Source: an uncultured Oleiphilaceae bacterium
GTDB taxonomy: Bacteria > Pseudomonadota > Gammaproteobacteria > Pseudomonadales > Oleiphilaceae
Direction of reading: 5' to 3'
Assembly: GCA_913060665.1 (NCBI GenBank)
Contig: CAJXUY010000004.1
Coordinates: 62,001-126,000, forward strand
DNA: 64,000 nt
Shown here: one piece after another, positions 4,110 through 51,931 of the stretch
How the letters are laid out: every line of letters begins with the position of its first letter
How positions within the stretch are numbered: position 1 is the first letter of the stretch
The notes under the pieces: model-generated
Database searches by the model: none
Seen by the model: only the letters and a program-made list of their open reading frames with translations
What the model was told of the DNA's origin: nothing
Position numbers and translations under genes: made by a program

Positions 4110-6275
4110 TTATGAAAGCAGCTTACTCAAATAACTGTTTCTAAAGTGCGCATTGCTTGCGTTAGTAGTTATTTCGACAAAATCATCTTCATTTCCGACA
4201 ATATGTATCTCAGACTCTGCTCTAGTTATGGCAGTATAAAGCCACGCACGATCTACAACCTTACCCTTCTTAAGGGCGATAATTACGCGAGGAAATTGAG
4301 AGCCTTGTGCTTTGTGAAGCGTTATTGCATAGCCTAGCTCCATACAGTCTAGTACTGGCTGGCTTATAGAGACCTTTTCGCCAACATCTAACGTGACTTC
4401 TCCGAAGGAATCTTCAGCGCCGTTAACACTACTTAAAACACCTAAGCTCCCGTTTTGGAGACCTTTATCATATTGATTCTGAGTGAATAGAATTGCGTCA
4501 TTTAAACGTAAGTCTTGGAAAAACCGCTCTCCATGAAGCTCAAATTCAAGTCTCTTCCCTTTAGGGTTTACTTTGTTTTGAATGAGGCTATTAACTTCTC
4601 TGACTAATACCTTTGTCGGAGCCATTACACAGCTACTGCTCGGGTTGCGAGAATAAAGATCGCAGCATACTTGAGCAATCTTATCTTTATCTGTCGCATG
4701 AAAGTAAATATTACCCATTGAGAGCTGCTCTGGTACAACGCCATTATTAATAGATTTGGAGTACTCAGGGATGCCTGTACTTCCTTCCTGGCGCTTCACA
4801 ATATCTAGCATGGTATTAGCAATAGACTTTGAATGAACTATGTCAGCGAGCACCTTACCACAGCCAATAGGCGGCAACTGGTCAGGGTCGCCTGTGAATA
4901 TAATTCTGACTGATGGGTGTATATGATTTACAAGCCTGTACATGGTCGGCAGGTCAATCATCGAAGCTTCATCAATTACCAATAGGTGATGTCTTTGCTG
5001 AGGCGTTGGTTCGATAGCATCGTTCCTAAGCAATGCTGCAATTGTTTTTGTGAGAAAACCGATTGACTCATGTAGACGCATTGCAGCTCTGCCACTGAGA
5101 GCGACGGCATGGATTTCATATCCCAGTGCGCTATAAGCCCTAAGAGCAGTTCTAAGCACGGTGGTTTTTCCTGTACCCGCTCCTCCTGTAATACAGCTAA
5201 CACCATTATCCAAACATACTGAAACAGCTTCACCCTGCTTCTTCGTCAATTCGTAAGGGAGTTCTTCAGCAGCTTGGTTAAAAGCATTGTAAGCTTCCTG
5301 TCCAAATAGATCTTTCTGACTCGACAAAGCTTTCAGTCGCTTTGCAACAACATTCTCCATAAGCAACTGAGCTGTTGGGTGATAAGTACCTTGCTCCGGA
5401 TTGATAATGAATTGAGCCTTAGTGTAGCCAGTACTATAAGCCTGACTAATCACGTCTTTATCTTTAAGCAATTTTCTTAAGCAAGGTCGCAGGCTTGCCT
5501 GGTTTGTATAAGTATGGCCTTTTTCAATTTCTTTTCTTATTGCTACTTCTAAAGCTGCACTAAGCCTCTTGGGATCATTATCAGTGATTTCAAGTTTAAA
5601 GCTTTTGTTAGCGAGCATATGATCAATATCTTCAAAAGGCATTCCGAATCCAACAAGCAGATACGGATTTTCTTTAATTGCCTGTATAGATTTCTCACCG
5701 TGATACTTCAGCAGCCTTTGCTGAACGCTAGCAGGAATTTTTCTTTCTGACATCCAGTTACAAAACGCGAGGTTCTTATATTTGGCATAACCGGCAAACA
5801 GTGCATCTATGGACTCATTGCTCAGAATGTCTCTTAGGCGCTTCCTCGAATTAAATGTATCAGCCTGAAGGACTGAATGAAAATCACGCCCCAGAGTCTC
5901 CCAAAGCGATCTAGCTTTACTTTCCCCAACACCCTTAAAGTCTTTTTCTTTTGCAATAAACCGTATTAGCTGCTCACCTGATTCAGGCAACTGACACTCA
6001 ACCCTCTCAGGCTTTTCATATGTATGCTGCTCCATCAGGTAGTCACCATGGTTGATCTCTGTTACAGATCGAAAACCTACTACTGACCATTGCTGCCCAA
6101 TCGAGGGCCGAACCGGAAGGCTGTTAGGGTCTGCAATGACCGTAACATAGTACTTACCACTATTTACCCTGTAGCTATCCCTTTTCAAAGGAATACCGGT
6201 AAAGATCACTAGATTTGTTGAGGTGTGAGGTATGCTTGTGACCCGTAATTGATCTTCATTCAAAGCTAGTGTCAT
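4110..6275 (-). CDS. RecD2-like superfamily 1 DNA helicase of the recombination module
   Basis: This 721-residue helicase has Walker A GGAGTGKTT at about 363, Walker B/DEAS (VIDEASMIDL) at about 433, motif III GDPDQLPPIG at about 460 and the C-terminal motif HKAQGSQF at about 653, all in RecD order. An N-terminal OB-like part and a helix-hairpin-helix (GVGESKARSLWETLG, near 118) place it with RecD2 rather than the shorter RecD of RecBCD. No RecB or RecC gene is nearby. It is the last gene of the module and overlaps the coiled-coil gene upstream by ATGA. It would unwind DNA 5'-3' by family knowledge; a role in element movement is inferred from the equivalent gene at 49670. Confidence 0.9.
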   Translation of the reverse strand: MTLALNEDQLRVTSIPHTSTNLVIFTGIPLKRDSYRVNSGKYYVTVIADPNSLPVRPSIGQQWSVVGFRSVTEINHGDYLMEQHTYEKPERVECQLPESGEQLIRFIAKEKDFKGVGESKARSLWETLGRDFHSVLQADTFNSRKRLRDILSNESIDALFAGYAKYKNLAFCNWMSERKIPASVQQRLLKYHGEKSIQAIKENPYLLVGFGMPFEDIDHMLANKSFKLEITDNDPKRLSAALEVAIRKEIEKGHTYTNQASLRPCLRKLLKDKDVISQAYSTGYTKAQFIINPEQGTYHPTAQLLMENVVAKRLKALSSQKDLFGQEAYNAFNQAAEELPYELTKKQGEAVSVCLDNGVSCITGGAGTGKTTVLRTALRAYSALGYEIHAVALSGRAAMRLHESIGFLTKTIAALLRNDAIEPTPQQRHHLLVIDEASMIDLPTMYRLVNHIHPSVRIIFTGDPDQLPPIGCGKVLADIVHSKSIANTMLDIVKRQEGSTGIPEYSKSINNGVVPEQLSMGNIYFHATDKDKIAQVCCDLYSRNPSSSCVMAPTKVLVREVNSLIQNKVNPKGKRLEFELHGERFFQDLRLNDAILFTQNQYDKGLQNGSLGVLSSVNGAEDSFGEVTLDVGEKVSISQPVLDCMELGYAITLHKAQGSQFPRVIIALKKGKVVDRAWLYTAITRAESEIHIVGNEDDFVEITTNASNAHFRNSYLSKLLS

Positions 6276-6709
6276 CGAGGCATAAACCCCATTTCGGAAA
6301 GAGTTTCCGAGAGTTCACCAAAACGCTCTAATCGCCCCTCTAGCTCTTTAACCTTTGCCTTCAACTCAATATTTTCTGCTTCCAAGGATGACAATCGTTT
6401 TGAGTCGAGTAACTTTCGATTAGCAGTGTTATCGTACTTTTTAGGGCTGCTCTGTGCTTTCTTACCAGTCTCAGATAAAGAAGGAAGGATACCCTTTTTA
6501 CGCAGTCTATCCTCCAGTTCCTTTAAGGCTTTTCTTACCTTCGAGTTATTCTTGAGAGCTTCATCTGACAAACCCGATAGCTTTTTAATCTGTCCCTTGT
6601 TGAGTTTGCCAGTTGGATGGTAGATGATGTCAGCGAAATCATCATCAGACATTGTACTTTCCCAGACATTGAACAACTCAAAGTAGTGATCACCTTTCTT
6701 CCTACTCAC
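6272..6709 (-). CDS. Small coiled-coil protein of the recombination module (second)
   Basis: This 145-residue basic protein has a C-terminal coiled coil (SSLEAENIELKAKVKELEGRL, about 107-128) after a lysine-rich linker. No catalytic motif is visible. It overlaps the helicase start by four bases and lies 46 bp after the other small gene. The protein at 49236-49673 has the same length, position and design (C-terminal VAELEAENRALKKQL, then a short tail with a glycine-phenylalanine pair), although overall identity is low. I infer that both are accessory DNA-binding or bridging proteins for the recombinases. Confidence 0.72.
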   Translation of the reverse strand: MSRKKGDHYFELFNVWESTMSDDDFADIIYHPTGKLNKGQIKKLSGLSDEALKNNSKVRKALKELEDRLRKKGILPSLSETGKKAQSSPKKYDNTANRKLLDSKRLSSLEAENIELKAKVKELEGRLERFGELSETLSEMGFMPR

Positions 6710-6755
6710 AAGCTCTTACCCCCCTAAACAGAGTCAAACATTTTCTTATAGAACA

Positions 6756-7154
6756 TCATCTCTTCGCATACTGAACTAAAGGTTGATCCAACTTGGTTTG
6801 CGATACACCATACATATCAGCATTCGCCTGCCATATCTTAAATCTCTCAAGCAATTTCTGATTAACAAACTTTAGTCTTTGATTATCTTCAGTGAGCTTT
6901 TCGATACGTTCATTCGCTTCGTTGATATCTTTGATCCAGCCGGCTTTCTCCGTTGGAGCCTTAAGCGCAGTCTTGCGGTCCTTCATAGCTATTTGAAGCT
7001 CTGTCAACTTCGCATAAGACTGGCGAGAACGAATGATTCCCAACCTCCTTTCACACGCCTCAACCAAGAGTGGCCACGTCAATTTAGGCTCAGACCACTC
7101 TTCAATTAGTTTCTTAATACGTGTAACGTCCTTCTCTGTTAAGTGTGGACCCAT
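6756..7154 (-). CDS. Small coiled-coil accessory protein (TnpC-like position)
   Basis: The product has 132 residues: an N-terminal helical region containing EEWSEPKLTWPLLVEACERRLGI and a coiled coil at about 77-112. It starts 2 bp after the third recombinase stops. The equivalent protein at 48810 has a matching HSWQGRLTWDLYAKKLAKRL segment, so the W-x(4-5)-LTW core is shared between the two islands. In Tn554 the small gene tnpC (about 125 residues) follows two tyrosine recombinases and aids transposition; GmtX of the gamma-mobile-trio is another small third partner. Homology to either is suggested by position and size, not shown. Confidence 0.7.
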   Translation of the reverse strand: MGPHLTEKDVTRIKKLIEEWSEPKLTWPLLVEACERRLGIIRSRQSYAKLTELQIAMKDRKTALKAPTEKAGWIKDINEANERIEKLTEDNQRLKFVNQKLLERFKIWQANADMYGVSQTKLDQPLVQYAKR

Positions 7155-7156
7155 AG

Positions 7157-9349
7157 TTATACCTCAATTTCATCCAGTATTGCTGACAATTCATCCAAAG
7201 ATGGCAATGCCTCTTGTTTTTCAGCCTCTATGGTCTTTGGGTCTATAATGCCAGCCATGGCAGCTGCGTTGTTCGTGAGGTTCCATCCGTCATCGGTATT
7301 CCATACGATGTCACCATTTTCAAGTCCAGGATCTTCGAGGAGTTTGACCAGTGCGTCGCACTTGAAAAGGTCCTTACATACTTTGGTCACCCATTCCGTT
7401 GCACCAATTTCCCCCCTAGACTCTGCAGCAATAGCATCACGATATCGTTTTTGCAGGTAATCCCGCTCCTCTTTGATGTTCTTAAGTTTTTCTTCATCGC
7501 CCTTGACGCAGGCGAGTTTTCCGCATCGCAGACACGACCCCATTTTGGGGCAAGGGTCACTGGCAAAGTTGTGCACACAAAGGCCAAGATGCGTTTGGTG
7601 AATAACTCGGTCCTGACCGCCTTCTGCAAGTTCAGTCACATCGCTCAGACTTAAGGGCGCATTGGTCATGATCTTTTCAAGACGACTTTCGGCATTACTC
7701 TGTTTCGTTTTAGGGTGAACCGCAGCGACAGCTTGGGTGCGCTCCTCAACCGTTTCATGGTTGTAGACGGAGCCCATACTTGTTCGACCTGAGAACGCAT
7801 CGATGAGCAGTTGAGACAAACCTGCGCGATGCATCTCTGTATTCATTTCGTGGCGAAAGGCGTGTGTGTTCACCTTGACGCCTTTGTAACCATGCCGCTC
7901 GAAAATGCCTTTCGTATTTCCTCCGCTGGACAATTGCGATATCATTCGGTGCCTAGAGGCCGCGTTTTCCACACCAAAATCTAACGTCGCTATCCCCTCC
8001 GAGTTAAGCGCACCTGTGCGGACCGTGAATAGCGCATCACGATACTTCACACGTTTTTTGCCATCCTCGGAAGGCGAGGTGTACGGAAAGTCTTTGGGCA
8101 GATATTTTTCGCGCATCAGGGTGTTGAGCTTGCGCAGCGTGATAACCGCTTTATCGTCAAAATCTCGCCGCACACCTTTCACGCCCATAACGTGGACTGG
8201 CTTTCCCTTGCTTGTATCCCAACCATTCAGCATCTCATCTATTATCTCCCGTGCAGCAGGACTCAATGACTTTTTCTTAGCGAGTTTATCGATGTAGGAG
8301 TTCTTGAAAGTTGATCTAGGCGCCTTATTTCCTGACAGAACTAGCTTGAGTGCAGAGCATGCTTCTGCGTAGGTCAATGGCTCATCTAACCCTTTATTCG
8401 GAACACCCTCATGCGGCGGAAATTCATCAGGATGATCTTCCAACCAAGCAGCATACTCTCGGGCTCCTTCGGTAATGGGTAGCATCCGTTCGATAAGACG
8501 GTTTACAACCTGCTCCATGCCTACTACGACTGGCTTAAGCGTCGCACCGAAACCCTTTTCGGAATACCATAGCAAGAACATGCGCTGACCACCATTTGCA
8601 CCCTCCTTGAATACGATAGGATCGCATTCAATGTCCGCCAATTCACCCACGCGGGCTGGCTGACTCAGCAATAAGGCACAGGCTGAGGTGACTACAATGT
8701 CTAGCGGATTGGTCAAATCGTTGTTGAACAGCTCGCCCAGAGCTTGAATTGACTCTCGACTCGGTAATTTCTTTTCTCGATCTTGTTTCTGTTGCTTTAG
8801 GGTGCCCACAGATACTTGCTTCAGAGGCGAAATCCAACGGAAGGGCTTGGCAAGCAATCTTTTCTTTGTCATCAACTTAACGACTTGCTCAAGACTCTTA
8901 CCTCTAGCGTACGCATTATTTCCTCTTGCCCACTGTAAATGCATCAGCTCGCATGCTCGGTTGCAGACCGGAGCTGACACCTTCGTCACGTCCCGTGCGC
9001 CCGTCAACTCGACTAATGCGTCCTCTAGAGTCCTGATGCAAGAAAGCCAATCTTGAGCGGATTTTTTATTAAGATACACACAGCGGTAAACAATGATCGC
9101 TTTGGCAAAATCCACAAAAGGGGGCTGCATATACAGCTTGGTTTCAGCTTTGCCGTTTTTATTATGCGCTAACTGCGTGAATGAACTGCATTCCAATCCC
9201 GATTGGTGCCATGAGTTCATATCCCATCGAATGCCTTCATGGACCCGACTACTCTTAGGTAGAGAATCTTTTGCCCACGCGATAAAGGCATCCAACTGCT
9301 CGGCAGCCTCAAGGTTTACCTTAGGTTTAAAATCAATGATGTCACTCAT
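7157..9349 (-). CDS. Tyrosine recombinase, third of three (large, cysteine-rich C-terminus)
   Basis: At 730 residues this is about twice the length of a simple phage integrase. The catalytic domain shows the first arginine in ARVGEL (about 231), His-x-x-Arg in THAFRHEM (about 495) and a candidate nucleophile tyrosine in SVYNHE (about 525). After it comes a cysteine cluster (CVHNFASDPCPKMGSCLRCG, about 592-611) that looks like a zinc site, then a coiled coil. The large size recalls Tn554 TnpB and GmtZ. Its start overlaps the stop of the second recombinase by ATGA, so translation is coupled. The counterpart in island 2 is 46681-48810. Confidence 0.88.
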   Translation of the reverse strand: MSDIIDFKPKVNLEAAEQLDAFIAWAKDSLPKSSRVHEGIRWDMNSWHQSGLECSSFTQLAHNKNGKAETKLYMQPPFVDFAKAIIVYRCVYLNKKSAQDWLSCIRTLEDALVELTGARDVTKVSAPVCNRACELMHLQWARGNNAYARGKSLEQVVKLMTKKRLLAKPFRWISPLKQVSVGTLKQQKQDREKKLPSRESIQALGELFNNDLTNPLDIVVTSACALLLSQPARVGELADIECDPIVFKEGANGGQRMFLLWYSEKGFGATLKPVVVGMEQVVNRLIERMLPITEGAREYAAWLEDHPDEFPPHEGVPNKGLDEPLTYAEACSALKLVLSGNKAPRSTFKNSYIDKLAKKKSLSPAAREIIDEMLNGWDTSKGKPVHVMGVKGVRRDFDDKAVITLRKLNTLMREKYLPKDFPYTSPSEDGKKRVKYRDALFTVRTGALNSEGIATLDFGVENAASRHRMISQLSSGGNTKGIFERHGYKGVKVNTHAFRHEMNTEMHRAGLSQLLIDAFSGRTSMGSVYNHETVEERTQAVAAVHPKTKQSNAESRLEKIMTNAPLSLSDVTELAEGGQDRVIHQTHLGLCVHNFASDPCPKMGSCLRCGKLACVKGDEEKLKNIKEERDYLQKRYRDAIAAESRGEIGATEWVTKVCKDLFKCDALVKLLEDPGLENGDIVWNTDDGWNLTNNAAAMAGIIDPKTIEAEKQEALPSLDELSAILDEIEV

Positions 9350-10932
9350 GCTTCACCCCTTCCAACAGTTTCAAGCATAGCCTTACAATCCAGAATCACC
9401 TTGCGACAGGCCAGAATGGCACGATCCCAGACGATCCCCGTGGTTTTATCGGTGGCAATGGTTTGTGCACGGCGACGCTCCATACGCTCTATCGCCGCAC
9501 GGTGATCCGCGCCGAGCAGTGGCTGGAATTTGCTGCAAGCATAACAGCTAAAGGGTGCATCCAGATGACAGGTAGCATTGGCACCGCAGACCGCCAAATC
9601 TTCGATTTGACAATCCACTCGGTCACCGTTCTTGGCAGAAGCACGATCTCTCACAATAGTACCTGTAAACGCATTCACGACCAGCGCGAGATGATCACTC
9701 ATCTTCTCATCAATCAGCGACATCAACTCCTGAGAGACCTGTCGGTATTTCCGTACAGTACGAGTGTCGCTATGCATAAGTGCACGAGCCATTGACCACT
9801 CATCCAGCCCGGCATTCGAGAGGTCGGTCCCAAGCGAGTACCTAAAGCGATGGCCTTTCGAAATTTTCAAAGGCTGATGGGTGCGTGGCGAAATTGGAAA
9901 GCTAGTCATACGTTCCATGCTTTCCAACCAATATTTTGTACCGTTTGTCACATGCAAACGTCGCTGTGGCGCATCCTCAAGCGCTTTGTGATCAGTGTCA
10001 TCAACCAGCACAGGAATTGAGTTTACATTCAAAGTCTGGCCTTTCCCTTTGAATTTACGCCTAAAGAGCGGCACATGCTTGATGGCTTTATCCCAATCTG
10101 CACTACCTGGGTACTCTTGCTTGAGTCGGGCAAGGACGATCGCCTTGTAGGCCTGAACAGTGTTGTAGAGATCCTCATCCAAGTTAAAAGTCTCCGACTT
10201 TGCTCGGAAGCCTGCGCCATCTTCATCCTTCTGCTTTGCCCAGTGAATCCGAATTTCATAGCCCTGCTCGCACTTTATAAAATCATCAAAAACCATCATT
10301 CGAAACTGAGCGCCGCGCTGCCCGTAGACCATCAACAACCGAAGATAGAGGTAGCGTTCAGGATCTAGATTTTGGTGGCAGAACTGTTCATGCAACCACT
10401 GATGTAACGCATCCTGCTCCGCCTGGATAAATGGTCCCTTTTCAGGATCTAAACTGAGAACAGGATCATTTTTAGATCGCTTCTTCCTTGGTATATGGTA
10501 GTACGCATCAATCAGAGCAAGTGAAGGCTTTATTTCAAGCGACTCACACGTCTGCCAAAACTTCATAAAACTGCATAACTGGGCAAACTCAGAACATGAA
10601 CATAGCTCGCGAAAATTGACCAGATGATCTTCTTTCAAAGGATCAAAGACCTCCTTTGCGGCCCTCGACAACACTGAAGTGACGTTGACAATAGTCTGTT
10701 GTGCTACCTCTGTCATACGGATAGCTAAAGCAGCTTGCAACCAATGCTGCCAATCAGATGGAACACACGCCACCGCCGCCTGCCAGTTAACCGATGGGGC
10801 TGTATTGTCTGGCCGCCACATCGGCATGGAAGCTATGAAAAGTTCACCACACTTTGCCGGTCTGGGCGCATCTAGCCATTCATCCAGAGTGTCCGTAGTG
10901 GGGGCTTTAAGCGCTTCAACTGCAATACTCAT
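9346..10932 (-). CDS. Tyrosine recombinase, second of three (with CYxCxKF zinc-like motif)
   Basis: The 528-residue protein carries the catalytic arginine in YGQRGAQFR (about 202), His-x-x-Arg in GHRFRYS (about 360), a histidine in ALMHSD (about 384) and the probable nucleophile in VRKYRQ (about 392). The C-terminal region holds CGANATCHLDAPFSCYACSKF followed by ADH. The motif C-Y-x-C-x-K-F-x-P-x3-A-D-H is also in the island 2 counterpart (45120-46688), so it marks this subfamily. Its ATG overlaps the stop of the first recombinase by one base. Confidence 0.88.
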   Translation of the reverse strand: MSIAVEALKAPTTDTLDEWLDAPRPAKCGELFIASMPMWRPDNTAPSVNWQAAVACVPSDWQHWLQAALAIRMTEVAQQTIVNVTSVLSRAAKEVFDPLKEDHLVNFRELCSCSEFAQLCSFMKFWQTCESLEIKPSLALIDAYYHIPRKKRSKNDPVLSLDPEKGPFIQAEQDALHQWLHEQFCHQNLDPERYLYLRLLMVYGQRGAQFRMMVFDDFIKCEQGYEIRIHWAKQKDEDGAGFRAKSETFNLDEDLYNTVQAYKAIVLARLKQEYPGSADWDKAIKHVPLFRRKFKGKGQTLNVNSIPVLVDDTDHKALEDAPQRRLHVTNGTKYWLESMERMTSFPISPRTHQPLKISKGHRFRYSLGTDLSNAGLDEWSMARALMHSDTRTVRKYRQVSQELMSLIDEKMSDHLALVVNAFTGTIVRDRASAKNGDRVDCQIEDLAVCGANATCHLDAPFSCYACSKFQPLLGADHRAAIERMERRRAQTIATDKTTGIVWDRAILACRKVILDCKAMLETVGRGEA

Positions 10933-12194
10933 TATTCATCTCCGCTATTAATTTGGGCCTCGACCCTCTGGCGTATTACTTTGAATTTATCCGAGCGTTT
11001 TTTCATAGCCTTATCTGCTTCTTCCTTCCAAAATTTCGCCCCGTATAGGCCCGGCATATTAGACTCTTCACTCCATCCAAAGGCATAGGTGAGGACTTTT
11101 TGAACCTTTGTCGTGCGATCCTCTGGGGTCAGCGCTTCCAGTTCATCCTTCATGCTCTCAAGGAGCGTATAGACAGAATCATGCCGCAAAATATGAAGGT
11201 GAACGAATTTCAACTCTGGCACGACTGCACCCACTCGAGTCAGGACACCATCAAGCGCGTTCATGCTTAGTGCCCGACCTTCGTTTCGGCGATGCGATAC
11301 CAATAAAAAGGGATGTGTCTTTGCTTCAGACAGACCGTTCTGCATGACACGGTAATTTTCCACGTAATCCTTTAGTGCCCACTCGAGATCATAACCAATC
11401 TTCCATTGTCGCTCATGGGTTTTGAACTGCGGTGCTTTAGGTCGCTTGTCGATTGACTCGTCCTCAAGATTGATAACTGAGAGTTCTCCGCTATGCCAAT
11501 GAATATCTTTAAGCTTGATCAATAGCATTTCGGAACGGCGCAACCCCAGATCAACCCCCAAAAGCAGTATGATGTAATTGCGTAATTTCAGTGCTGCATT
11601 TGCGAAAGGGTTTTCAGCACTATCAGGATGCATAACCTCTAACAATCGTTCACGTTGATTCTGATCAAGCCTCTTCATTTCCTCTAGCTTCTTCTTTTTC
11701 CAGGATGGCTTCGCCGCTTTGACCTTGCGATTAATACGCCTAACTAAATAATCACACGCCGACTCCTGAGTTGACTGATCACCTAGCTTTTCATAAAGAA
11801 ATTTGAGATAGTCGCGTGCATGTTCAATACGCTGCTGAGCATGAGTTCTTCCAACATATTCAAAAGCTGATGGGAGCAGCCGTACCCCTGCATACTTTTG
11901 CTCAAGGGTTGATTTTTGGAAAGCCGCATCGCTCACAAAACGAGAGAGTTCATCATCTGTTAGATAGCTCGATTTGGGTCGCTGTTCTAGCCGGGCAATT
12001 AGATCAATCGATTCATACTCCAGAAATCTCTCTAGCCGTGCTATGTTATCAAGATATTTTTTCTGAGTATTCAGCGCTCGAGTTGACAGTTCAGTGGTGG
12101 CAAAAAGGTTCGGGTAATAAAGAGGCATTTGCTCTTTCAATAAAACCTTTGCTCGAGCGCCGTTTATCATTATCTCTACGGTTTGATGATTCAT
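10932..12194 (-). CDS. Tyrosine recombinase, first of three
   Basis: Starting from the ATG at 12194 (MNHQTVEIM) the protein has 420 residues. An upstream in-frame ATG at 12260 would add 22 residues but lies inside the terminal repeat region, so I prefer the shorter form. It has an N-terminal SAM-like core-binding domain and a catalytic domain with arginine in LGLRRSEM (about 217) and HILRHD (about 331). The terminal tyrosine is less clear; MPGLYGAKFW is the best candidate, and no clear LGH motif is seen. It is the promoter-proximal gene of the six-gene module, and its 5' end faces ettA across the likely island boundary. Confidence 0.86.
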   Translation of the reverse strand: MNHQTVEIMINGARAKVLLKEQMPLYYPNLFATTELSTRALNTQKKYLDNIARLERFLEYESIDLIARLEQRPKSSYLTDDELSRFVSDAAFQKSTLEQKYAGVRLLPSAFEYVGRTHAQQRIEHARDYLKFLYEKLGDQSTQESACDYLVRRINRKVKAAKPSWKKKKLEEMKRLDQNQRERLLEVMHPDSAENPFANAALKLRNYIILLLGVDLGLRRSEMLLIKLKDIHWHSGELSVINLEDESIDKRPKAPQFKTHERQWKIGYDLEWALKDYVENYRVMQNGLSEAKTHPFLLVSHRRNEGRALSMNALDGVLTRVGAVVPELKFVHLHILRHDSVYTLLESMKDELEALTPEDRTTKVQKVLTYAFGWSEESNMPGLYGAKFWKEEADKAMKKRSDKFKVIRQRVEAQINSGDE

Positions 12195-12206
12195 ATTTAG
12201 ATTCCA

Positions 12207-12268
12207 AAACATAACTTTTTTAACTATAGTGATGAGCATATCACAACAATTTTTAAACATAACTTTTT
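12207..12268. repeat. Pair of 14-bp direct repeats at the island 1 boundary
   Basis: AAACATAACTTTTT occurs at 12207-12220 and again at 12255-12268, 48 bp apart, just upstream of the first recombinase gene. Read towards the recombinase these are AAAAAGTTATGTTT. They share AAAGTT(A/G)T with the repeats at both ends of island 2. They are candidate recombinase-binding or end sequences; the exact crossover point cannot be read from one copy. Confidence 0.5.
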
Positions 12269-12339
12269 AAAATTAATTCCCGTGCACCCAGAAAACTCTT
12301 AAAGGCCACGAGATATATAGCAATAAGGTAAATATTTAT

Positions 12340-14561: not shown

Positions 14562-14566
14562 TAAAA

Positions 14567-42108: not shown

Positions 42109-42140
42109 TAATTGACCAATCAAGGTCGTTCACCCCTCTC

Positions 42141-42169
42141 AAAAAGGCTGTCAGAGTGACGGCCTTTTT
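42141..42169 (+). terminator. Terminator after the aldehyde dehydrogenase gene
   Basis: AAAAAGGC-T-GTCA pairs with TGAC-G-GCCTTTTT (one wobble) around a GAG loop. Confidence 0.92.
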
Positions 42170-42213
42170 AAATTTACCCTATAGAGTTTGTGCTGCTGCC
42201 TTAATTTGGTTAA

Positions 42214-42732
<519 letters not shown>

Positions 42733-42782
42733 TTTAATTTTCTTACTACAAGTAACGCCGACTTCAATCATTCTGAAGTTGA

Positions 42783-43052
<270 letters not shown>

Positions 43053-43090
43053 TGCCAAACGTTTAATAATGCTGCCAGCCAAGGATTGGA

Positions 43091-43726: not shown

Positions 43727-43790
43727 AGAACGTCTTAGTTGAAATTAAATTCAATTATAGCCTGGGAAACATACCTTTCTAGGAAGTTTT

Positions 43791-43814
43791 AAGGGCATTT
43801 TTATTAGTGCCCTT
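43791..43814. other. Hairpin in the leader of the island 2 recombinase operon
   Basis: AAGGGCA and TGCCCTT pair across a 10-nt AT-rich loop, followed by TATTTTC. It could terminate transcription entering from ggt. AGTGCCCTAAA at 43717-43727 lies nearby and recurs at 63653-63663. Confidence 0.45.
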
Positions 43815-43873
43815 TATTTTCAAATGTATTTTAGAATGGTAAGCTTATATAAAAGTTAACTAAGGCGACACTT

Positions 43874-45160
43874 ATGATCGACCTGAACATGGAAACTCTG
43901 ATTTTTGATACAGGCGAGCGATACCCTATGCTAGTTGATAGCGGGGGGATGCCTGACTTCTATATCTCGCTTTTTATCACCGTAATGATGCGGCCAAAGA
44001 GCGAAACTAATACCTTGGTAAAGGTTTTGTCAGCACTTAAACACTTGCGACGCTGGGAGGAATTCAATGATCGTCGGCTCGATGATGAGTTTTATGAAGG
44101 TCGCTTGCTTGAGCTGGCAGATCTGCATTCAATCCGAGATCATTGCAAGCTTGATAGTGACGCTTTCGAAAATTGGGTGGCGCAAAAGAAAGCGATAAAT
44201 GCGGGCGACCTTGTCAATGTCGCGAGTCTAAATAGGAATCAGTCGCCTCAGATTCTATCCGTCTCCAATAATCATCGCGCTATTCGCATGGGCTACATAG
44301 CGGCTTACTTGAAGTTTCTCGCAGAAACCGTGATGAGAGTGCGGCCTGATTATCCTTGCTTGCTGCCACAAATCGACCGAATGATTGGTGATTTTCGCAA
44401 GTTGATTCCCAGGACCCGAAGCTATCAGCAGAACAGCGGTGTTTCTAGAACGCCAGATCATTCAGTATTTGAAACCTATCTGTACATCGCAAAGCCTGGA
44501 TCAATCGACAACCCTTTCAAAAATCCAGGCAGGCAATTGAGGCACTTCATCATGATGAGCTTACAGTTCGAAGCGGGGCTGCGACCAGGCGAGGTGCTGG
44601 CACTCTGGGCGGAAGATATCGAATACGGCGCTGAAAACTATGTTCATGTTGTGCGACGACATCACGACCCAAGAGATCCAAGGATTCGACAGGAAGTCGC
44701 GAAGACAAAGCCAAGGGTTTTGCCAATAGATCATGAGTTGGCCCGTTTGATCCACAAATACGTTGTTGAGGTTCGGAACAAGATTCCCGAGGCGCAATCT
44801 CATCCCTTGCTGTTTGTCACGCATGCTAGCAATGGGCGTGGTCAACCCATTTCTTCCAAGGCGGTGATGCAGGAAGTGGGACAGATCATAAATATTCGTC
44901 CAGATACGTTAGCAGGCCTAACACGCCATCAATTCCGGCATGGGTTTGCCAATCATGCGAAAGAAGTCATGGGCGAAAAAGGCATCCAAAACGCATCGCA
45001 GGAGCCCATCATGCAGCAAGCACTCGGACACGGTTCACCCGAATCCCAAAAGCCCTATACCGACAAGTACGTCCAAAAAGAAGCTAGTAAAACCCTCCAA
45101 GAAATTAATCGGGAACGCCATGGAAAAGCAAAAAGTACAGATATTAAAAAAGACGCCTGA
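43874..45160 (+). CDS. Tyrosine recombinase, first of three
   Basis: 428 residues with a SAM-like core-binding domain and a complete catalytic set: Arg in AGLRPGEVLAL (about 236), His-x-x-Arg in RHQFRHGFA (about 352), LGHGSPES (about 384) and a tyrosine in PYTDKY (about 395-399). AAGGCG precedes the ATG. It holds the same position as 10932-12194 in island 1, though little direct identity is visible. The second recombinase starts inside its last 41 bases. Confidence 0.92.
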   Translation: MIDLNMETLIFDTGERYPMLVDSGGMPDFYISLFITVMMRPKSETNTLVKVLSALKHLRRWEEFNDRRLDDEFYEGRLLELADLHSIRDHCKLDSDAFENWVAQKKAINAGDLVNVASLNRNQSPQILSVSNNHRAIRMGYIAAYLKFLAETVMRVRPDYPCLLPQIDRMIGDFRKLIPRTRSYQQNSGVSRTPDHSVFETYLYIAKPGSIDNPFKNPGRQLRHFIMMSLQFEAGLRPGEVLALWAEDIEYGAENYVHVVRRHHDPRDPRIRQEVAKTKPRVLPIDHELARLIHKYVVEVRNKIPEAQSHPLLFVTHASNGRGQPISSKAVMQEVGQIINIRPDTLAGLTRHQFRHGFANHAKEVMGEKGIQNASQEPIMQQALGHGSPESQKPYTDKYVQKEASKTLQEINRERHGKAKSTDIKKDA

Positions 45161-46688
45161 GCAGCCTCGTGTCAAGGTAGCTAAGGTTAAGCAGACCATT
45201 CGGACTGCACGCTCGGGGGAGATATTCGTCTTTGAAAGTAACGAATGGCGTTTGGGGGACCTTAAACTCCCCTGGTCTATTTTGGATGAGAAAGGCATAA
45301 CGGCGCAGGTCACTCCTGTTTTATTGACGTCTTTTCGCAAAATGATGGCTGAGTTGGTCGAAGAGGTCAGTGAAAGCTATGCAAGAAAAGTGTTTGATCA
45401 AGTCATTTCTCTGCTGAAATTCTGTCGGGATGAATTGACTATTGCTGCTTTCGAGACTTGGAGAGCAGCATTGTCAAAGCAAGGGTTAGGGGCAAATTCC
45501 CAGATTGTTTATGTGACCTATTGCCGTGCAGGTTTAAACGCCTGGGCCGACGGGAACTACCCTGGGCTAGAACAGGGGCTTACGGACCACGCAAATCGGA
45601 TTTACTCAGGTTCAATGACCTCGGGCGAAGCCGTTCGTGAGCTATGCCCCGTGCGCGGTCCTTTCACACAGGCTGAGGAAGCAGCCTTGATTCGCTGGCT
45701 CCATCAATCTTATGCGAATGGAACATTGTCGTTGCAAGACTATGCCATTTTTATGGTTGAACTTGATTATGGCTGCCGTCCCGTAGAGCTAGCTGCGTTG
45801 CGCGTATCAGATGTGATGGAACGCGAGAATGGAGTGGGTTATGAGATAAGAATTCCTACGGCTAAAGGCCAACGAAATTACCGTGAGTCATTCCGCGTGT
45901 TAGAGATGTCGGCCGATTTATATGCCCTGCTTAACGAAGTGATTCATCAAGGTCAAGCAAAGCTAGCGCAGGCCTGGGGTCAACCGATTTCACCCAGAAC
46001 CTCCAAGCAACTACCTTTGTTTATCGGTAAACGCTTGCTGGCTGCAGGCAGCAGCGAAGCCATTGAGCATCGTATTGTTAAAACGCCCAAAACTTTTGAT
46101 ATCGCTGTATCTAGCTACTTACAATCCTCCATTAGAAAGTGCCCGGTCACTACAGAGAGGCTGGATGGGGAATTGCTGCCATTGTCTTTATACCGTTTTC
46201 GGCGAACCGTCGCGACGCGTCTTGCGGAAGCAGGCGCTACTGATGAGACCATTGCTGCAATTTTAGGTCATACCAGTACCAAAACCGTGAAAGTCTATAC
46301 CGCGCACACATACGAGGATCAGGAGGCTAGTGATGCAATTATGGCAGAAGCTTGGATGCCAGTCTTGAATGGGATGAACGAGCGCCTACTGGAAACCCCA
46401 ATACCTGGACAAGCCAAGGTGCATCTAAACCGTGATGTCGACATTGGTAACTGCTCACAGCTTTGTGGGGGTGGCTTCTTAAACTGTTATCCCTGCGCCA
46501 AATTCAGGCCCTTTGCCGATGCAGACCACGAGGAGGCGCTGACGAAGGCAGAATCTGAGAGGCAATCACGTATTGATAAGGGCATGAGTGGATCGGAAGT
46601 GGATTCATTGGATCTGCCCATCGCAGCGATCAAGGCCACGATTCTAGCCTGCGAGATACACAAAAAGGGAGGCTCTGCCCATGGGTGA
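45120..46688 (+). CDS. Tyrosine recombinase, second of three (CYxCxKF motif)
   Basis: 522 residues from ATG 45120 (MEKQKVQIL); an upstream frame to 44940 only shadows the first recombinase. Catalytic Arg is in YGCRPVEL (about 219), and LGHTS (about 381) and VYTAH (about 391) are good. The usual His-x-x-Arg reads SLYRFRRTVA, so the first histidine is replaced by tyrosine. The C-terminus has CSQLCGGGFLNCYPCAKFRP and ADH, the same zinc-like motif as 9346-10932. Confidence 0.9.
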   Translation: MEKQKVQILKKTPEQPRVKVAKVKQTIRTARSGEIFVFESNEWRLGDLKLPWSILDEKGITAQVTPVLLTSFRKMMAELVEEVSESYARKVFDQVISLLKFCRDELTIAAFETWRAALSKQGLGANSQIVYVTYCRAGLNAWADGNYPGLEQGLTDHANRIYSGSMTSGEAVRELCPVRGPFTQAEEAALIRWLHQSYANGTLSLQDYAIFMVELDYGCRPVELAALRVSDVMERENGVGYEIRIPTAKGQRNYRESFRVLEMSADLYALLNEVIHQGQAKLAQAWGQPISPRTSKQLPLFIGKRLLAAGSSEAIEHRIVKTPKTFDIAVSSYLQSSIRKCPVTTERLDGELLPLSLYRFRRTVATRLAEAGATDETIAAILGHTSTKTVKVYTAHTYEDQEASDAIMAEAWMPVLNGMNERLLETPIPGQAKVHLNRDVDIGNCSQLCGGGFLNCYPCAKFRPFADADHEEALTKAESERQSRIDKGMSGSEVDSLDLPIAAIKATILACEIHKKGGSAHG

Positions 46689-48810
46689 TCTGCACTCTTC
46701 CTCTCGCATTGCTCTGCAAAGCTACATAGAACAGGCCCGAGAGCTTTCTATCTATGGTGGTAAAACCGGTTGGTTAACCAATAAATGGGTCACTACGACA
46801 CTTCGAAATCCCATCAAGATGGAATTCTGTCAGATGCGGAAACATTCATCAGAAGCGATTGTTCCCCTTAAAAGCCCGTTCCTTGAGTTTGCCAAGGCCT
46901 ACGTGCGTCATCGGCAACATAGGAAAGAAGTTGGATCAATTGCCTTCACAATGTCAGCACTGCGATTTATCTATGCGGCATTGGTGGAAATCCATTCAGA
47001 GCATGAAGTTTCAAAAATTGACGGTGCCGTACAGGAGTTGGCGCGTGAAAAGATAGCTGCGTGGTATAGCGAAGATTCAAATACTCCCTTTCTCGTTGGG
47101 GGGCATCTCATGGCTATCTATGCAACGTTGCGCGACAATGGGATTCATCCCGCACTGCCATACTGGCAATCGCCATGGAAGGAAAAGGTAAACAAAGCCT
47201 ATTCCATGAGTTCCAAAGCGAAGGCTTGGCGAATACAAAAAACACCTGACGATCAAAAACTGGCTGCTGTGTTGGTCGCCTTCGAGCTGGCTGAATCCGA
47301 CAAGGATCAGTATTTCAGCAGTTTGGCGTTGTTGCTGGCGTTTGCACCCAGTCGCGGGGGAGAGTTGATTGACCTAGGCGTGAAGTCACTGATCGATGAG
47401 ACATTCACGAATCGCTACGGCCGAGTGAAACGTCGCGTCGGAGTACGCTGGTTTTCAGAAAAGGGCTTCGGTGTCCGCACAAGTTGGGTGCCGCGTATTT
47501 CTTCATCCAACGGTGATGAGGCGCAGGAAACCTTCCTTATGGATAAAGTCGTGTTGGCGTTCAACCGACTTAAGCGATTGTCTGAGCCAGCCCGTCGAGC
47601 GGCCAAATTGGCGTTCGATACTCAAGGCTCGGTTTACCCAATACACGAATTTTGCATCACGTCTGCCGACTATTCGCAAACTCAAGTGTTGAGCGACCCA
47701 GAGACTGCTCATGCCATGGGGCGAACAGCGACATTGACTCAATCGAACCTGAATATTCCAAAGTACTGGCGTACTAAGAAATACTTTAGTTGGCATACGC
47801 CCTGTATTGAACACGGCAATCCTACGTATAGGGATATTGCACAAGCTGATTATGAGCATTTTACCGGTAAGTTTCCTTTCTGGCCTCATACATCAAACAG
47901 TGAGCGCATAAAGGTCTGGGATTGCCTAGTTTTGCATCAGTGGAATCAGTTTAATGAAACCAGTAAGCAGGTTTACCCCAATAGTTATATGCTGCCAACG
48001 ACCAATCAACTGGGTATTCAACTAAGCGGCAATCAAACACAGACCTCTCTGTTCGAGCGTTTAGGGCTCACAATGGATGATGGTTCAGCTATTCAATTGC
48101 AGTCCCACGATTTTCGTCGCTGGCATGGTACTCGGGGCCGAGAGTTGGCCCACAAAGGTCTGACAGAACACCGGTTGCGGATGTTGGCGGGACGCCAAGA
48201 TATCACCCAAAATGAAGCGTATGACTTTACGACTCCCAAGCAAAGAGCTGATCGAATTAGGAAAATCATTGCGAAATCTAGTGAGAGCATACCGCTTCAT
48301 GAGCGAGTTGCGATTGGCACACCGATCTACCGGCACGAATTATTAGATCGTAAGCTGGGAGAACTGGAAGTGCTTCAACCGATCCAGTTGGGCGAGTACG
48401 GTGGATGCACCCATTCCATTACGGAACCACCCTGCATGAAAGGGGGCGACTGCCTAACTTGCTCCGAGAAAAAATACATCAAGGGTATGCCTGGGTGCCT
48501 CCAAAGGCTGCGAGAAACTGCGGTTCACCACAAAGCCGAGTTTGACGCCTTAGAGGCTTGGCAGAAGAAACGGGATCAATTAGGCGTAGACCAATGGATG
48601 ACCTACAACGCCATTCGATATGCCGTTGCAGAGTCTCTTGTGCGGCAAATGGAAGATCCCACCATACCCGATGGCACGGTACTGGGCGTCGATGAAAAAT
48701 TTGATCCGAGTCCGCTCAAGGTAAACTTGATGGCCAAAGGTATTGATGTACAGGAGCAACCGGAAGATCTCGTGTCTCAGGAAATAAACCAACTGTTGGG
48801 ATTTGATTAA
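46681..48810 (+). CDS. Tyrosine recombinase, third of three (large, cysteine-rich C-terminus)
   Basis: 709 residues. Arg in PSRGGELIDLG (about 224), His-x-x-Arg in SHDFRRWHG (about 475), and a probable nucleophile in NEAYDFTT (about 513). Then comes the cysteine group CTHSITEPPCMKGGDCLTC (about 575-593), matching in spacing the CVHNF...CLRC group in the island 1 protein. It overlaps its neighbours by eight and one bases, so the three recombinases are translated together. Confidence 0.9.
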   Translation: MGDLHSSSRIALQSYIEQARELSIYGGKTGWLTNKWVTTTLRNPIKMEFCQMRKHSSEAIVPLKSPFLEFAKAYVRHRQHRKEVGSIAFTMSALRFIYAALVEIHSEHEVSKIDGAVQELAREKIAAWYSEDSNTPFLVGGHLMAIYATLRDNGIHPALPYWQSPWKEKVNKAYSMSSKAKAWRIQKTPDDQKLAAVLVAFELAESDKDQYFSSLALLLAFAPSRGGELIDLGVKSLIDETFTNRYGRVKRRVGVRWFSEKGFGVRTSWVPRISSSNGDEAQETFLMDKVVLAFNRLKRLSEPARRAAKLAFDTQGSVYPIHEFCITSADYSQTQVLSDPETAHAMGRTATLTQSNLNIPKYWRTKKYFSWHTPCIEHGNPTYRDIAQADYEHFTGKFPFWPHTSNSERIKVWDCLVLHQWNQFNETSKQVYPNSYMLPTTNQLGIQLSGNQTQTSLFERLGLTMDDGSAIQLQSHDFRRWHGTRGRELAHKGLTEHRLRMLAGRQDITQNEAYDFTTPKQRADRIRKIIAKSSESIPLHERVAIGTPIYRHELLDRKLGELEVLQPIQLGEYGGCTHSITEPPCMKGGDCLTCSEKKYIKGMPGCLQRLRETAVHHKAEFDALEAWQKKRDQLGVDQWMTYNAIRYAVAESLVRQMEDPTIPDGTVLGVDEKFDPSPLKVNLMAKGIDVQEQPEDLVSQEINQLLGFD

Positions 48811-49226
48811 TGCCTAAAAAGATTATCACAGATGAAACGATGCCACAGGCGCTAGGACTGCTTCACAGTTGGCAAGGCAGGTTGACCTGGGATCTTTATG
48901 CTAAGAAGTTAGCCAAGCGTCTGAAAGTTGATCGTATCGCGAAGCGCTCGCTTTACAAACACGATGAAATTGTCATCGTTTACAAACAAGTTCAAGAGAG
49001 GCTGAAGGAGCAAGCACCCGAAGAAAAAACAACCGACGCAACAGTTAGAAAGCTGACGCAGGAACTGGAAAAGACGCAATCTGAGCTTGCGCATGAGAAG
49101 CAAAAAGTGACCAACCTTCAGGAAGCGTTACTGCGCTTACAGCGCAATGCTTACATGGTTCCTGGGATCGATACCAAGAAGCTACAAGACCTACTAATTA
49201 ATAGATTACCGGATGAAAGACGATAG
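48810..49226 (+). CDS. Small coiled-coil accessory protein (TnpC-like position)
   Basis: 138 residues: an N-terminal segment LLHSWQGRLTWDLYAKKLAKRL, a linker and a long coiled coil (VRKLTQELEKTQSELAHEKQKVTNLQEALLRLQ, about 73-105). Its start codon overlaps the third recombinase stop (TAATG). The W-x4-LTW core is shared with 6756-7154. No enzyme motif is seen. Confidence 0.75.
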   Translation: MPKKIITDETMPQALGLLHSWQGRLTWDLYAKKLAKRLKVDRIAKRSLYKHDEIVIVYKQVQERLKEQAPEEKTTDATVRKLTQELEKTQSELAHEKQKVTNLQEALLRLQRNAYMVPGIDTKKLQDLLINRLPDERR

Positions 49227-49235
49227 GAGGTAGGC

Positions 49236-49673
49236 ATGACAAGGAAAAATAAAAGCGGTGCAGAACTTGCCAAGGAATACTTTGATCGGGCCAAAGAATG
49301 GAAGGCTCGTACTGAGGCATCCGGGACTGCTCATGAGTATGTTTATGCTGGACGGGTTAAGCGCAGAGAGTTTGCTAAAGAGTGTGATTTCTCCTACAGC
49401 GTGTGTACTCAGAACGGGGATGTTAGGAAGCTACTTGAGAGCTGTGATCTGGAATGGTTCGGCACAGAATCAGTTGATAAAGCTGCGGAAAATGCAGCTA
49501 ATGAGCGAGCTGAGAAACGGGCTCAAACAGTATCCTCAGATAACAGTAGGCTCAAGGTACGCGTTGCTGAGTTGGAAGCTGAAAACAGAGCGCTCAAAAA
49601 GCAGTTGAAACGCTACCAAGCGCTAGAAGCAGTGGTTCATGATGGTATGGCCGGATTTGGAGTAATTGCATGA
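49236..49673 (+). CDS. Small coiled-coil protein of the recombination module (second)
   Basis: 145 residues, exactly the length of its counterpart at 6272-6709. A basic N-terminus (RKNKSGAELAKEYFDRAKEWK), a middle with two cysteines, then a C-terminal leucine-zipper-like helix (SRLKVRVAELEAENRALKKQLKRY, about 104-127). AGGAGG precedes the ATG. The stop overlaps the helicase start by ATGA. Confidence 0.75.
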   Translation: MTRKNKSGAELAKEYFDRAKEWKARTEASGTAHEYVYAGRVKRREFAKECDFSYSVCTQNGDVRKLLESCDLEWFGTESVDKAAENAANERAEKRAQTVSSDNSRLKVRVAELEAENRALKKQLKRYQALEAVVHDGMAGFGVIA

Positions 49674-51931
49674 CGACTGCAAGACTTTATACATTGGTCC
49701 AGATTGCTAAGCAGCGCTCGGGTGGTTATTACTTCGTCCACTTGATTAATTCAGACGGTACGCTTAAGAAGCGACGACGCTCATTGATCGTCCAGTTTCC
49801 AAGTCATCTTGGCTCACTACCTATTGGCTCATTGTGGAAAGTGAGAGGACAGCAATCGGTTAGTCAGTTTATGGTGAATAGCTTTCTGGTTTACGAAGAT
49901 GTGCTGAGTGCGACACACGCTGCCATGGTGCAGCCTGCAAAGCATACTCTCAGTCGATGGATTAGCTTAAATGTCGATGGCGTTGGTGAAGTCATTGCTA
50001 ATCGGTTGATCCGTAATCGCAGCTTAGAGAAGTGGGTTCGTAATGCTGATATAGATGCGTTGTGCAGTGTGCCAGGCATGAATACCAAGTTGGCTAAGCG
50101 ATTGATTGAACAGTGGCCAGAAGAAGGCCTATATGAAACCATGGACTGGCTAGATGCTTTGAATCTGAGCCCTTCACTGGGCTTTAAGTTGGTCAACCTC
50201 TTTGAAGATAAGACTGTAGATCGTTTAACTGATAATCCCTTTTTGTTGCTTGGGCTAGGCATTACCTATAAGCGAGTGCTAGAGGTAATCGACCAGCTCA
50301 AATTAAACCTGTCTGAGGAATTATTAGCCGCAGGAGCTGCGATGCATGTGGCTATCAAAAGATCCAACAGCACAGGCTCTACGGTGATTACAGATAGTGA
50401 GTTACGTGAAGGTGTAAGCAAGCTTAGTGATACTATAGGGGCAACTGACCCCGGTAAGTCTGCTGTGAAGCAGGGACTATTGGTAAGGGTTGAAGGCGGC
50501 TATCAGGTATGGGGCGCTGCCCTCATGGAGGCAGCGGTCACTCAAAAGCTAGTTGAGTGCTTAAACAGATCGCCAGGAGCGGGGGCGTTGCTTGCGAGCT
50601 GGGAGTGTAAGATCAGTGAACCTGTCTTACAACAGGCCTTATCTGAGTATGAAAAAACATTACCGTTCACTCTTTCAGACGAACAGCGTCAGGCTGTTCT
50701 AGGTGCGGTATCCGCGCCAGTTGTCGGTATATCAGGGGGCGCTGGAACTGGCAAGACCACAATCTTACGGGCCATCATAGGTGTGTATAACTCGTTGTCA
50801 GAAGGCTTGGTTTGTCTGCCTGTAGCCTTGTCAGGCAGGGCTGCTCAACGGATGGCCGAAAGCATAGGGATGCCTGCCCAAACCATCGCCAAGCTGATTT
50901 CAGATCATATTGGCGAAGGCAAACCAAGGTTCCCCGAGCATGTATTGATCATTATCGATGAAGCTTCGATGGTTGATCTGTTATCAATGCACCAACTCGT
51001 GGGTCTTCTGCCAGAAGCTACGCGCTTCCTCTTCCTCGGAGATAGCGCTCAACTGCCTCCAGTAGGTAGCGGCTTAATATTCCATGCTTTATACGACTCG
51101 CCAGTTCCGTTCTTCGATCTGTCGCAAGTTAAAAGACAGTCTGAACAAAGCCCCATCCATCAGTTTGCTACAGCGGTTAGAGAAGGTGAAGTGATCATAC
51201 CAGAAATGGCATCACAGGCACTTGCTGAGTCGCCCGAGTGCTCAATCATATCGCCACCCTCATTAGACCTTCTTACGCGCTTTTGGCGCGATGCTGAGGC
51301 TGAGGGGGATCGCATCATTCTTTCTCCTCGCCGATCTGGTGACTGGGGTGTGACAAGGCTTAACGGGCACTTCCAGGAGGTCGCGGGTTATTCACGCGAG
51401 GATCTTTATTATCTAGACCCAACCAAGGGGTGGATACCTTGGATTACACGCCACAATCAGCGTATAAAGTTGGGTGACCCAATCTTGGTTACAGAAAACA
51501 TTTACGGTGATGAGCTGGATGTTCGAAATGGTGATCTTGGGACGGTTACCGAGGTTTTTCCAGCGATTAGTCCTGAGGGTTGGTATGGAAAGGCTGTGAT
51601 AAATGGGCAAACCAAGGGTATCAGTCAGGACTTGCTGGAGGTATTAGATCTTGGTTATGCAATTACGATTCACAAGTCACAGGGTTCTCAATGGCACACT
51701 GTTTTCTCTTTGGTGCATCGTGATGCGAAACACATGCTAGATAGGTCTCTCGTGTATACTGCCGCGACAAGGCCCACAGATAGGCTTGTGCTCGTTGCAG
51801 ATACTCTATGTCTCGAATGGGCTATCAAGGCGGGTAACTCGGCGAATCGGAGAAGGGTCGATATCAGAAACAAGCTCGCTGGATTGCTCACTACAGATTC
51901 AATTAACGTTAGTCAGGATAATTGCGGATAA
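49670..51931 (+). CDS. RecD2-like superfamily 1 DNA helicase of the recombination module
   Basis: 753 residues. Helix-hairpin-helix VDGVGEVIANRLIRN (about 102), Walker A GGAGTGKTT (about 357), DEAS (IIDEASMVDL, about 430), motif III GDSAQLPPVG (about 462), and HKSQGSQW (about 668). Same layout as the 721-residue protein at 4110, including the N-terminal extension typical of RecD2. It ends the six-gene operon. Confidence 0.92.
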   Translation: MTTARLYTLVQIAKQRSGGYYFVHLINSDGTLKKRRRSLIVQFPSHLGSLPIGSLWKVRGQQSVSQFMVNSFLVYEDVLSATHAAMVQPAKHTLSRWISLNVDGVGEVIANRLIRNRSLEKWVRNADIDALCSVPGMNTKLAKRLIEQWPEEGLYETMDWLDALNLSPSLGFKLVNLFEDKTVDRLTDNPFLLLGLGITYKRVLEVIDQLKLNLSEELLAAGAAMHVAIKRSNSTGSTVITDSELREGVSKLSDTIGATDPGKSAVKQGLLVRVEGGYQVWGAALMEAAVTQKLVECLNRSPGAGALLASWECKISEPVLQQALSEYEKTLPFTLSDEQRQAVLGAVSAPVVGISGGAGTGKTTILRAIIGVYNSLSEGLVCLPVALSGRAAQRMAESIGMPAQTIAKLISDHIGEGKPRFPEHVLIIIDEASMVDLLSMHQLVGLLPEATRFLFLGDSAQLPPVGSGLIFHALYDSPVPFFDLSQVKRQSEQSPIHQFATAVREGEVIIPEMASQALAESPECSIISPPSLDLLTRFWRDAEAEGDRIILSPRRSGDWGVTRLNGHFQEVAGYSREDLYYLDPTKGWIPWITRHNQRIKLGDPILVTENIYGDELDVRNGDLGTVTEVFPAISPEGWYGKAVINGQTKGISQDLLEVLDLGYAITIHKSQGSQWHTVFSLVHRDAKHMLDRSLVYTAATRPTDRLVLVADTLCLEWAIKAGNSANRRRVDIRNKLAGLLTTDSINVSQDNCG

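Follow-up and report, generated by a model that had tools for sequence, protein, structure and literature searches.

The presence, within one 64,000-nucleotide window (the whole stretch of DNA analysed) from an uncultured Oleiphilaceae bacterium, of two operons that each combine three recombinase genes, two genes for small coiled-coil proteins and a final helicase gene raises the question of whether these six genes are the core of a transposon family of their own, as the original prediction held, or are assembled from parts with separate histories. Both operons are indeed present with the same gene order, module A on the minus strand and module B on the plus strand; neighboring stretches of the same contig (C4 2001-146000) and of a second contig of this genome (C16 50001-90000) were examined as well. 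The reading that we favor, at a probability of about 0.6, is that each module consists of a ginABCD head of the kind found in GInts, followed by an exchangeable tail of two genes that serves as an accessory of strand-exchange machines of several families. Module A has the following parts.

10932..12194, minus strand: gene 1, GinA-type tyrosine recombinase, 420 aa (Phage_integrase, 3e-9)
9346..10932, minus strand: gene 2, GinB-type tyrosine recombinase, 528 aa, with a C-terminal Cys cluster (NF041502, 1e-69; 235.5 bits, cut-off of 350 not reached)
7157..9349, minus strand: gene 3, GinC-type recombinase-fold protein, 730 aa, with a Cys cluster (74% aa identity to Hahella L057)
6756..7154, minus strand: gene 4, GinD-type small coiled-coil protein, 132 aa (HMM from alignment A3)
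6710..6755, minus strand: joint between the ginABCD head and the tail, where the head and tail DNA similarities part
6272..6709, minus strand: gene 5, VPA1267 family protein, 145 aa, first tail gene (NF040697, 143.6 bits)
4110..6275, minus strand: gene 6, RecD2-like SF1B helicase, 721 aa, second tail gene (TIGR01448, 363 bits, cut-off 500)

The corresponding parts of module B are these.

43874..45160, plus strand: gene 1, GinA-type recombinase, 428 aa (Phage_integrase, 1e-11)
45120..46688, plus strand: gene 2, GinB-type recombinase, 527 aa, or 522 from ATG (NF041502, 2.5e-77; 260.7 bits, under cut-off)
46681..48810, plus strand: gene 3, GinC-type protein, 709 aa (by sequence comparison)
48810..49226, plus strand: gene 4, GinD-type small protein, 138 aa (by sequence comparison)
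49236..49673, plus strand: gene 5, VPA1267-like protein, 145 aa (NF040697, 61.0 bits, under cut-off)
49670..51931, plus strand: gene 6, RecD2-like helicase, 753 aa, overlapping gene 5 by 4 nt (sister of the L150 helicase)

The common origin claimed for the two modules was upheld by pairwise blastp and by matches to the NCBIfam model NF040697. The three recombinase pairs (R1, R2 and R3, in gene order) are 24%, 25% and 23% identical (E 3e-17, 6e-25 and 1e-14) and the helicases 28% (27% in a second comparison; E 3e-59). The small-protein pairs are the weakest two: the first (S1) reaches E 0.002, and the second (S2) E 0.12, which is not significant alone; the S2 proteins are taken as homologous because NF040697, the VPA1267 family model with a cut-off of 90 bits, matches both copies, over the cut-off in A and under it in B. 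The three signatures reported as shared, in the second recombinase, in the first small protein and in the Cys cluster of the third recombinase, are present. Start/stop overlaps do not run throughout the operons as had been stated, as S1 and S2 are separated by 46 nt in A and 9 nt in B, and R3 and S1 by 2 nt in A. The gap between S1 and S2 is the joint between two separately inherited units.

The last gene of each operon was correctly recognized as a RecD2-like helicase, and the elements as tyrosine recombinase elements. The helicase of module A, whose gene overlaps gene 5 by 4 nt, contains AAA_30, HHH_RecD2 and UvrD_C_2 domains. Both helicases (363 bits in A, 311.8 bits in B) fall under the TIGR01448 cut-off of 500, which places them as RecD2-like rather than as the cellular equivalog, and of the four cellular rows in the helicase phylogeny, three are separate from the group of 21 mobile helicases and one is a very long branch.

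Genes 1 to 4 of both modules are the ginABCD genes of GInts, the Tn6571 family (name in PMC10121019). In A and B alike the operon runs from two catalytic recombinases through a recombinase-fold protein to a small coiled-coil protein, in agreement with GInt anatomy, and insertion at the 5' end of an ABC transporter gene is given as a GInt criterion in PMC5385486, which also describes GInts at ssb. Module A is a GInt by both anatomy and site, because ettA is uninterrupted in three of four congeners and 24 of 29 related loci adjoin the same gene; module B is a GInt by anatomy. The features at the site of module A are as follows.

12340..14028, plus strand: ettA-like ABC-F ATPase gene, target gene of island A, its first 12 codons supplied by the island
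1..12375, no strand: the portion of island A that the window covers (the complete island, of about 24.7 kb, is at about C4:49669-74375)
12195..12376, no strand: ginA-proximal border of island A, with two ACATAACTTTTT repeats, the replacement ettA 5' end and the border at TACGTATA (12376)

The 29 related loci came from a scan in which a GinC alignment of two rows was the query and each species was represented by one genome. Matches to R1, R2, R3 and S1 occur in all of them, a few being spread across two frames or truncated where the contig stops; a GinD-type gene was found by HMM behind GinC in 29/29, and the 24 loci with an ettA-like ABC-F gene have it beside ginA, as in module A. In three of four same-genus genomes (G369, G371 and G372) ettA is unbroken and the sequences flanking island A meet directly, while the fourth (G370) has another insertion at this site. 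That insertion, of about 4 kb (L134 2750-6840), has the same GInt end motifs and a replacement ettA start without gin genes, and is possibly a non-autonomous GInt. With regard to the imperfect direct repeats of 10-17 nt that are a further GInt criterion, the flanks of island A contain a weak repeat around TATGATTA / TACGTATA, and GInt B has the 6 bp AGTTGT. Kinship to the archetype of P. stutzeri DSM 4166 was approached through the Stutzerimonas loci among the 29, which are at the same site and to which GinC of module A is 58-62% identical; GinC of module B is 22% identical to that of module A, and module B lies in the end of a Tn7-like transposon, outside the ABC transporter and ssb sites. 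The cargo of island A (L016 9409-19734) includes a CBASS cyclase with a SAVED-HNH effector, type I restriction-modification (RM) subunits and a PrrC-like gene. A third relative, with four genes and without S2 and the helicase, is encoded on contig C16 of the same genome.

For the GinA-type protein of module A, R219, K258, H334, R337 and Y384 are present in 47/47 relatives, and W374 in 46/47. GinC has been reported to be without the first arginine or catalytic residues (PMC5385486, PMC10214605). We find R233 (in a PxRxxE-like box), K265, H496xxR499, R522 and Y529 in all 54 aligned GinC proteins, R522 standing where His or Trp is usual; this invariant R-K-H-R-R-Y set, as a pattern in aligned sequences, would call the published lack into question. 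The structure model of GinC is of low confidence (pLDDT 65) and was used for fold class only, Cre and XerH being among its best matches (E 0.003-0.02).

Several known systems were considered as alternatives to GInts. Strand-biased circularizing integrative elements (SEs), with the gene order intA-tfp-intB-srap, share with the modules a core of four genes for proteins of the recombinase fold plus one small auxiliary protein, the second gene, tfp, encoding a recombinase-fold protein without catalytic residues (PMC10214605). Membership was rejected on two characters taken from the description of SEs: the gene order differs, and the second gene here keeps R206, K233 and Y396 in 51/51 relatives of the GinB type, with R364 in 49/51 (A numbering). 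Tn554 (TnpABC) and RIT elements likewise have several tyrosine recombinases together; by description, they differ in consisting of three proteins, with RIT recombinases of 315-410 aa (PMC10214605, Table 1). GMT elements have the same tail of VPA1267 and a RecD2-like helicase and differ from the modules in their head of three genes, including one GmtZ of about 870-1270 aa. The suggested comparison with GMT profiles spoke against membership, GmtY scoring 19.7 bits in A and 52.1 bits in B relative to a cut-off of 340, with no match to the GmtZ or GmtX models. The kinship with the GMT world that had been sensed holds at the other end of the operon, since the VPA1267-helicase pair also ends GMT operons.

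As a separate observation, plasmid pT75-VIM has recombinase genes of the GInt type beside tmexCD-toprJ (L010 11818-15496): their GinC falls inside the Stutzerimonas/Pseudomonas clade of the GinC tree, and the second gene is cut short behind an IS21. A tmexCD element has been called an SE (PMC10214605), and we do not assume it to be identical with the one on pT75-VIM.

Both modules differ from the archetypal GInt in their last two genes. In the archetype, cargo begins at the ginD stop (Bardaji, PMC5385486); in the modules the ginABCD order is the same, module A is likewise inserted at an ABC-F 5' end and cargo likewise follows the operon, with VPA1267 and the RecD2-like helicase coming next to ginD instead. 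Judged from sequence comparison, genes 5 and 6 are a separable tail. The expectation that all six genes co-occur in order fails among the loci nearest to module A by GinC, where gene 5 and the helicase follow in 2 of 29, one from an Endozoicomonas and the other from a Motiliproteus (3 of the other 27 are on contigs that stop 0.6-1.7 kb after ginD), and fares better in a wider sample of 390 same-order genomes, where VPA1267 lies beside 9 of 25 GinC places (two G562 rows merged; six places match over fewer than 190 columns). In the same genomes it is beside 4 of 9 GmtY places and absent at the other 5. Because only these fractions of GinC and GmtY places have VPA1267, the tail is optional for both GInts and GMT elements; it is absent in 36 of 50 judgeable GinC rows.

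The association can also be viewed from the tail. The 21 VPA1267 rows in the 390 genomes correspond to 19 loci, after two G410 fragments were merged and a weak coiled-coil match in G724 was dropped. A recognizable tyrosine recombinase operon precedes 17 of these loci (10 GInt, 4 GMT and 3 unnamed: L046, L048 and L141); of the remaining two, L140 is behind three large genes without a Pfam match and the other is a lone fragment. A helicase, complete or partial, is present at 15/19. Head and tail are separated by two intervening genes in L046 and by one in L141. Signs of decay are found in G415 and G654, where the VPA1267 gene is fragmentary. In G410 (L056 6465-10325), the remains of a decayed VPA1267-helicase pair are found not behind the small gene but on its other side, between it and the third recombinase gene.

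These distributions bear on the view that the pair is ordinary cargo, the first to be inserted at the ginD stop, which merely looks like a part of the operon. We consider this rather doubtful. The breakpoints at the end of ginD and at the start of VPA1267, the position at which the archetype's cargo begins and the absence of the pair from most GInts in our sample are what one would expect of cargo, but GMT and unnamed heads are followed by this pair as well, with gene order and strand unchanged, and the precedence of a recombinase operon at 17/19 loci (a contrast drawn without a cargo-gene control) points in the same direction.

Plasmid-borne GMT operons end in the tail, with the order gmtY, gmtZ, gmtX, VPA1267 and AAA ATPase (L100, L101 and L104). 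Broken genes in the plasmid loci and in L102, L107 and L109 were searched as separate open frames, and our similarity tables join the pieces of one match. Some of the plasmid loci carry drug-resistance genes nearby. The gene VPA1266 of the V. parahaemolyticus island VPaI-6 is probably also a tail helicase, because its published primer (PMC1464126) encodes IPYRS, as does the N-terminus of the L101 helicase. A class-wide search with VPA1267 matched 4 of 369 genomes, one of them over the cut-off, which is the source genome itself, and a search of viral contigs with the helicase of module A found no relative. A literature search, with the GMT paper (10.1038/s41564-024-01840-5) outside its scope, returned no description of the VPA1267-helicase tail or of its exchange.

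The unnamed heads before the tail (L046, L048, L140 and L141) are operons encoding proteins of, for example, 755, 695 and 240 aa. Pfam gave no family name for them, nor did NCBIfam for the two that were tried, and they possibly represent further unnamed transposon families. Compared with plasmids, the L046 head protein matched 11 records, one of which covers most of the query, and the L141 protein matched none.

The first tail protein may itself be distantly related to the last head protein. A profile comparison of VPA1267 with GinD gave a match of 93% probability (E 3e-7) over 68 columns including the coiled coil, and a distant relationship between the two is possible; VPA1267 did not match GmtX. 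The VPA1267-like protein of module B matched DUF6262 at E 0.003, under the cut-off. DUF6262 is TnpC-like, which gives a weak point of resemblance to Tn554. The structure model of VPA1267 (pLDDT 78) has a helical N-terminal part and a long coiled coil, with no fold match (best E 1.6).

Comparison of DNA sequences indicates that the two tail genes pass together from one head to another that is not homologous to it, because the identity between L101 (Vibrio, GMT) and L102 (Photobacterium, GInt) is confined to the tail and because the head of module A resembles that of a tail-less GInt. L101 and L102 are 88% identical over L101 9566-12191; the identity starts at the VPA1267 start of both and stops 25 nt past the helicase stop, and the sole other match, of 153 nt, lies about 7.7 kb downstream. 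Between ettA and the stop of ginD (window 6758), the DNA of module A is 75% identical to that of L057, the Hahella GInt that has no tail, and the tail DNA of module A is 67% identical to GMT tails, the match with L100 at window 6535-4195 lying wholly beyond the joint. In the helicase tree (25 rows), three forks with 100/100 support unite different heads, and one fully supported fork, module B with L150, unites two GInts. Among 11 tailed GInts, head identity and tail identity are uncorrelated (rho 0.04, with 1947 of 5000 permutations as high).

Exchange is accompanied by inheritance, because the tail is more clustered on the GinC tree than after shuffling (2 of 500 shuffles gave a value as low). 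On this tree (54 rows, two pairs of which are identical; a quick method, with several long branches) the tail changes at least 8 times. The exchanged L101/L102 tail is under purifying selection, with dN/dS of 0.05 for VPA1267 and 0.11 for the helicase, the latter from the first 660 codons of the L102 gene, before its frame break. Since pS differs between the two genes (0.64 for VPA1267 and 0.29 for the helicase), they were maybe not exchanged in a single event.

Head and tail thus have incongruent histories in the helicase tree, the DNA breakpoints, the GinC tree and the pairwise identities, which rules out the distinct or extended six-part family that had been proposed: genes 1 to 4 are ginABCD. 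A related view, that an ancestral, separate six-gene family existed from which GInts and GMT elements lost or exchanged parts, could draw on the six-gene forms that sit on several deep GinC branches, including that of the betaproteobacterial plasmid L108. It is nevertheless highly improbable, as the helicase of module A is far closer to that of GMT L100 than to that of module B (71% vs 27% aa identity) and the head of module A nests among mostly tail-less GInts in the GinC tree.

How a tail of this kind could serve a GInt head is suggested by what is described for related elements. In assays published in 2017, ginABCD alone were sufficient for excision and integration, and all four genes were required for both (Bardaji 2017, PMC5385486). 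By analogy with other GInts, the head here would catalyze site-specific circularization and insertion. An optional tail must act on a step for which hosts can also provide without it, making that step better or different, and its most likely role would be unwinding during a copy-out-like circularization. Copy-out by GInts is itself suggested by missing empty sites, some GInts being described as leaving none (PMC5385486); the copy-out model stems from SEs, the circles of which are strand-biased, nicked double strands (PMC10214605). The coiled-coil VPA1267 protein would link the helicase to the recombinase-DNA complex, the helicase would unwind from the nick left by single-strand exchange, and the element would thereby be copied out in circular form while relying less on helicases of the host.

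A different function, in which the pair counters nucleases or defence of the host by protecting or mending the excised circle or DNA that enters the cell, seems improbable to us. RecD-like proteins do occur in a defence library (the helicase of module A matches PADLOC typeIV_RecD with 172 bits), and among the cargo of island A are CBASS, type I RM and one PrrC-like gene; against this, domain searches found no nuclease domain in the pair, and its constant neighbors are recombinase operons. An accessory role in strand exchange, our preferred reading, can also be carried further, if only tentatively: the VPA1267-RecD2 pair may be a portable helicase cassette, shared across mechanistically related, non-homologous tyrosine recombinase transposons, that would convert copy-out-like recombination with strand bias into replication of the element driven by the helicase, and would be the missing replication factor of SEs, GInts and GMT elements. 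Defence systems, toxins and resistance genes travel on GInts and GMT islands, whose movement involves neither conjugation genes nor a DDE transposase, so that the helicase would offer a handle on the replication step. A tail helicase that follows recombinases across families would also be a marker for finding further families.

The setting of module B differs from that of module A in that the gene interrupted nearby, ggt, is split by a Tn7-like transposon. Two features define this setting.

43673..43694, plus strand: terminal repeat of the Tn7-like transposon in ggt, next to GInt B (TGTAAGAGAGTAATAAAGTTGT; inverted 15-bp partner at C4:143209)
43695..63766, no strand: probable extent of GInt B, about 20 kb, each border having the 6-bp AGTTGT (with displaced TnsB-like sites at C4:125805-125926)

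A 5-bp duplication, ATATT, is found at both ends of the transposon, the empty ggt site being read by eye from the two flanks; a search for an empty site of the left end gave no match among 97 genomes besides the source genome itself. The tns genes lie at C4:135-143 kb, with TnsA, TnsC, TnsD and TnsE identified by Pfam and TnsB by its Mu-type C-terminal domain. These genes and the TnsB-like sites rule out that the insertion in ggt is the GInt itself. Module B sits about 200 bp inside the left end, and GInt B seems to be nested there, splitting the terminal TnsB-like site from three others; its right border is one that we infer. The Tn7-like transposon (window 43673-64000 and L017 9483-17230) carries type I RM cargo.

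Within the probable extent of GInt B, a cytochrome P450 gene is part of the cargo. Around it are 74-nt inverted repeats, 86% complementary, at window 56247-56320 and 63055-63128, and ferredoxin, reductase and AraC-type genes were also recognized by eye between them. The repeats and the genes of the P450 region possibly form a composite unit within GInt B.
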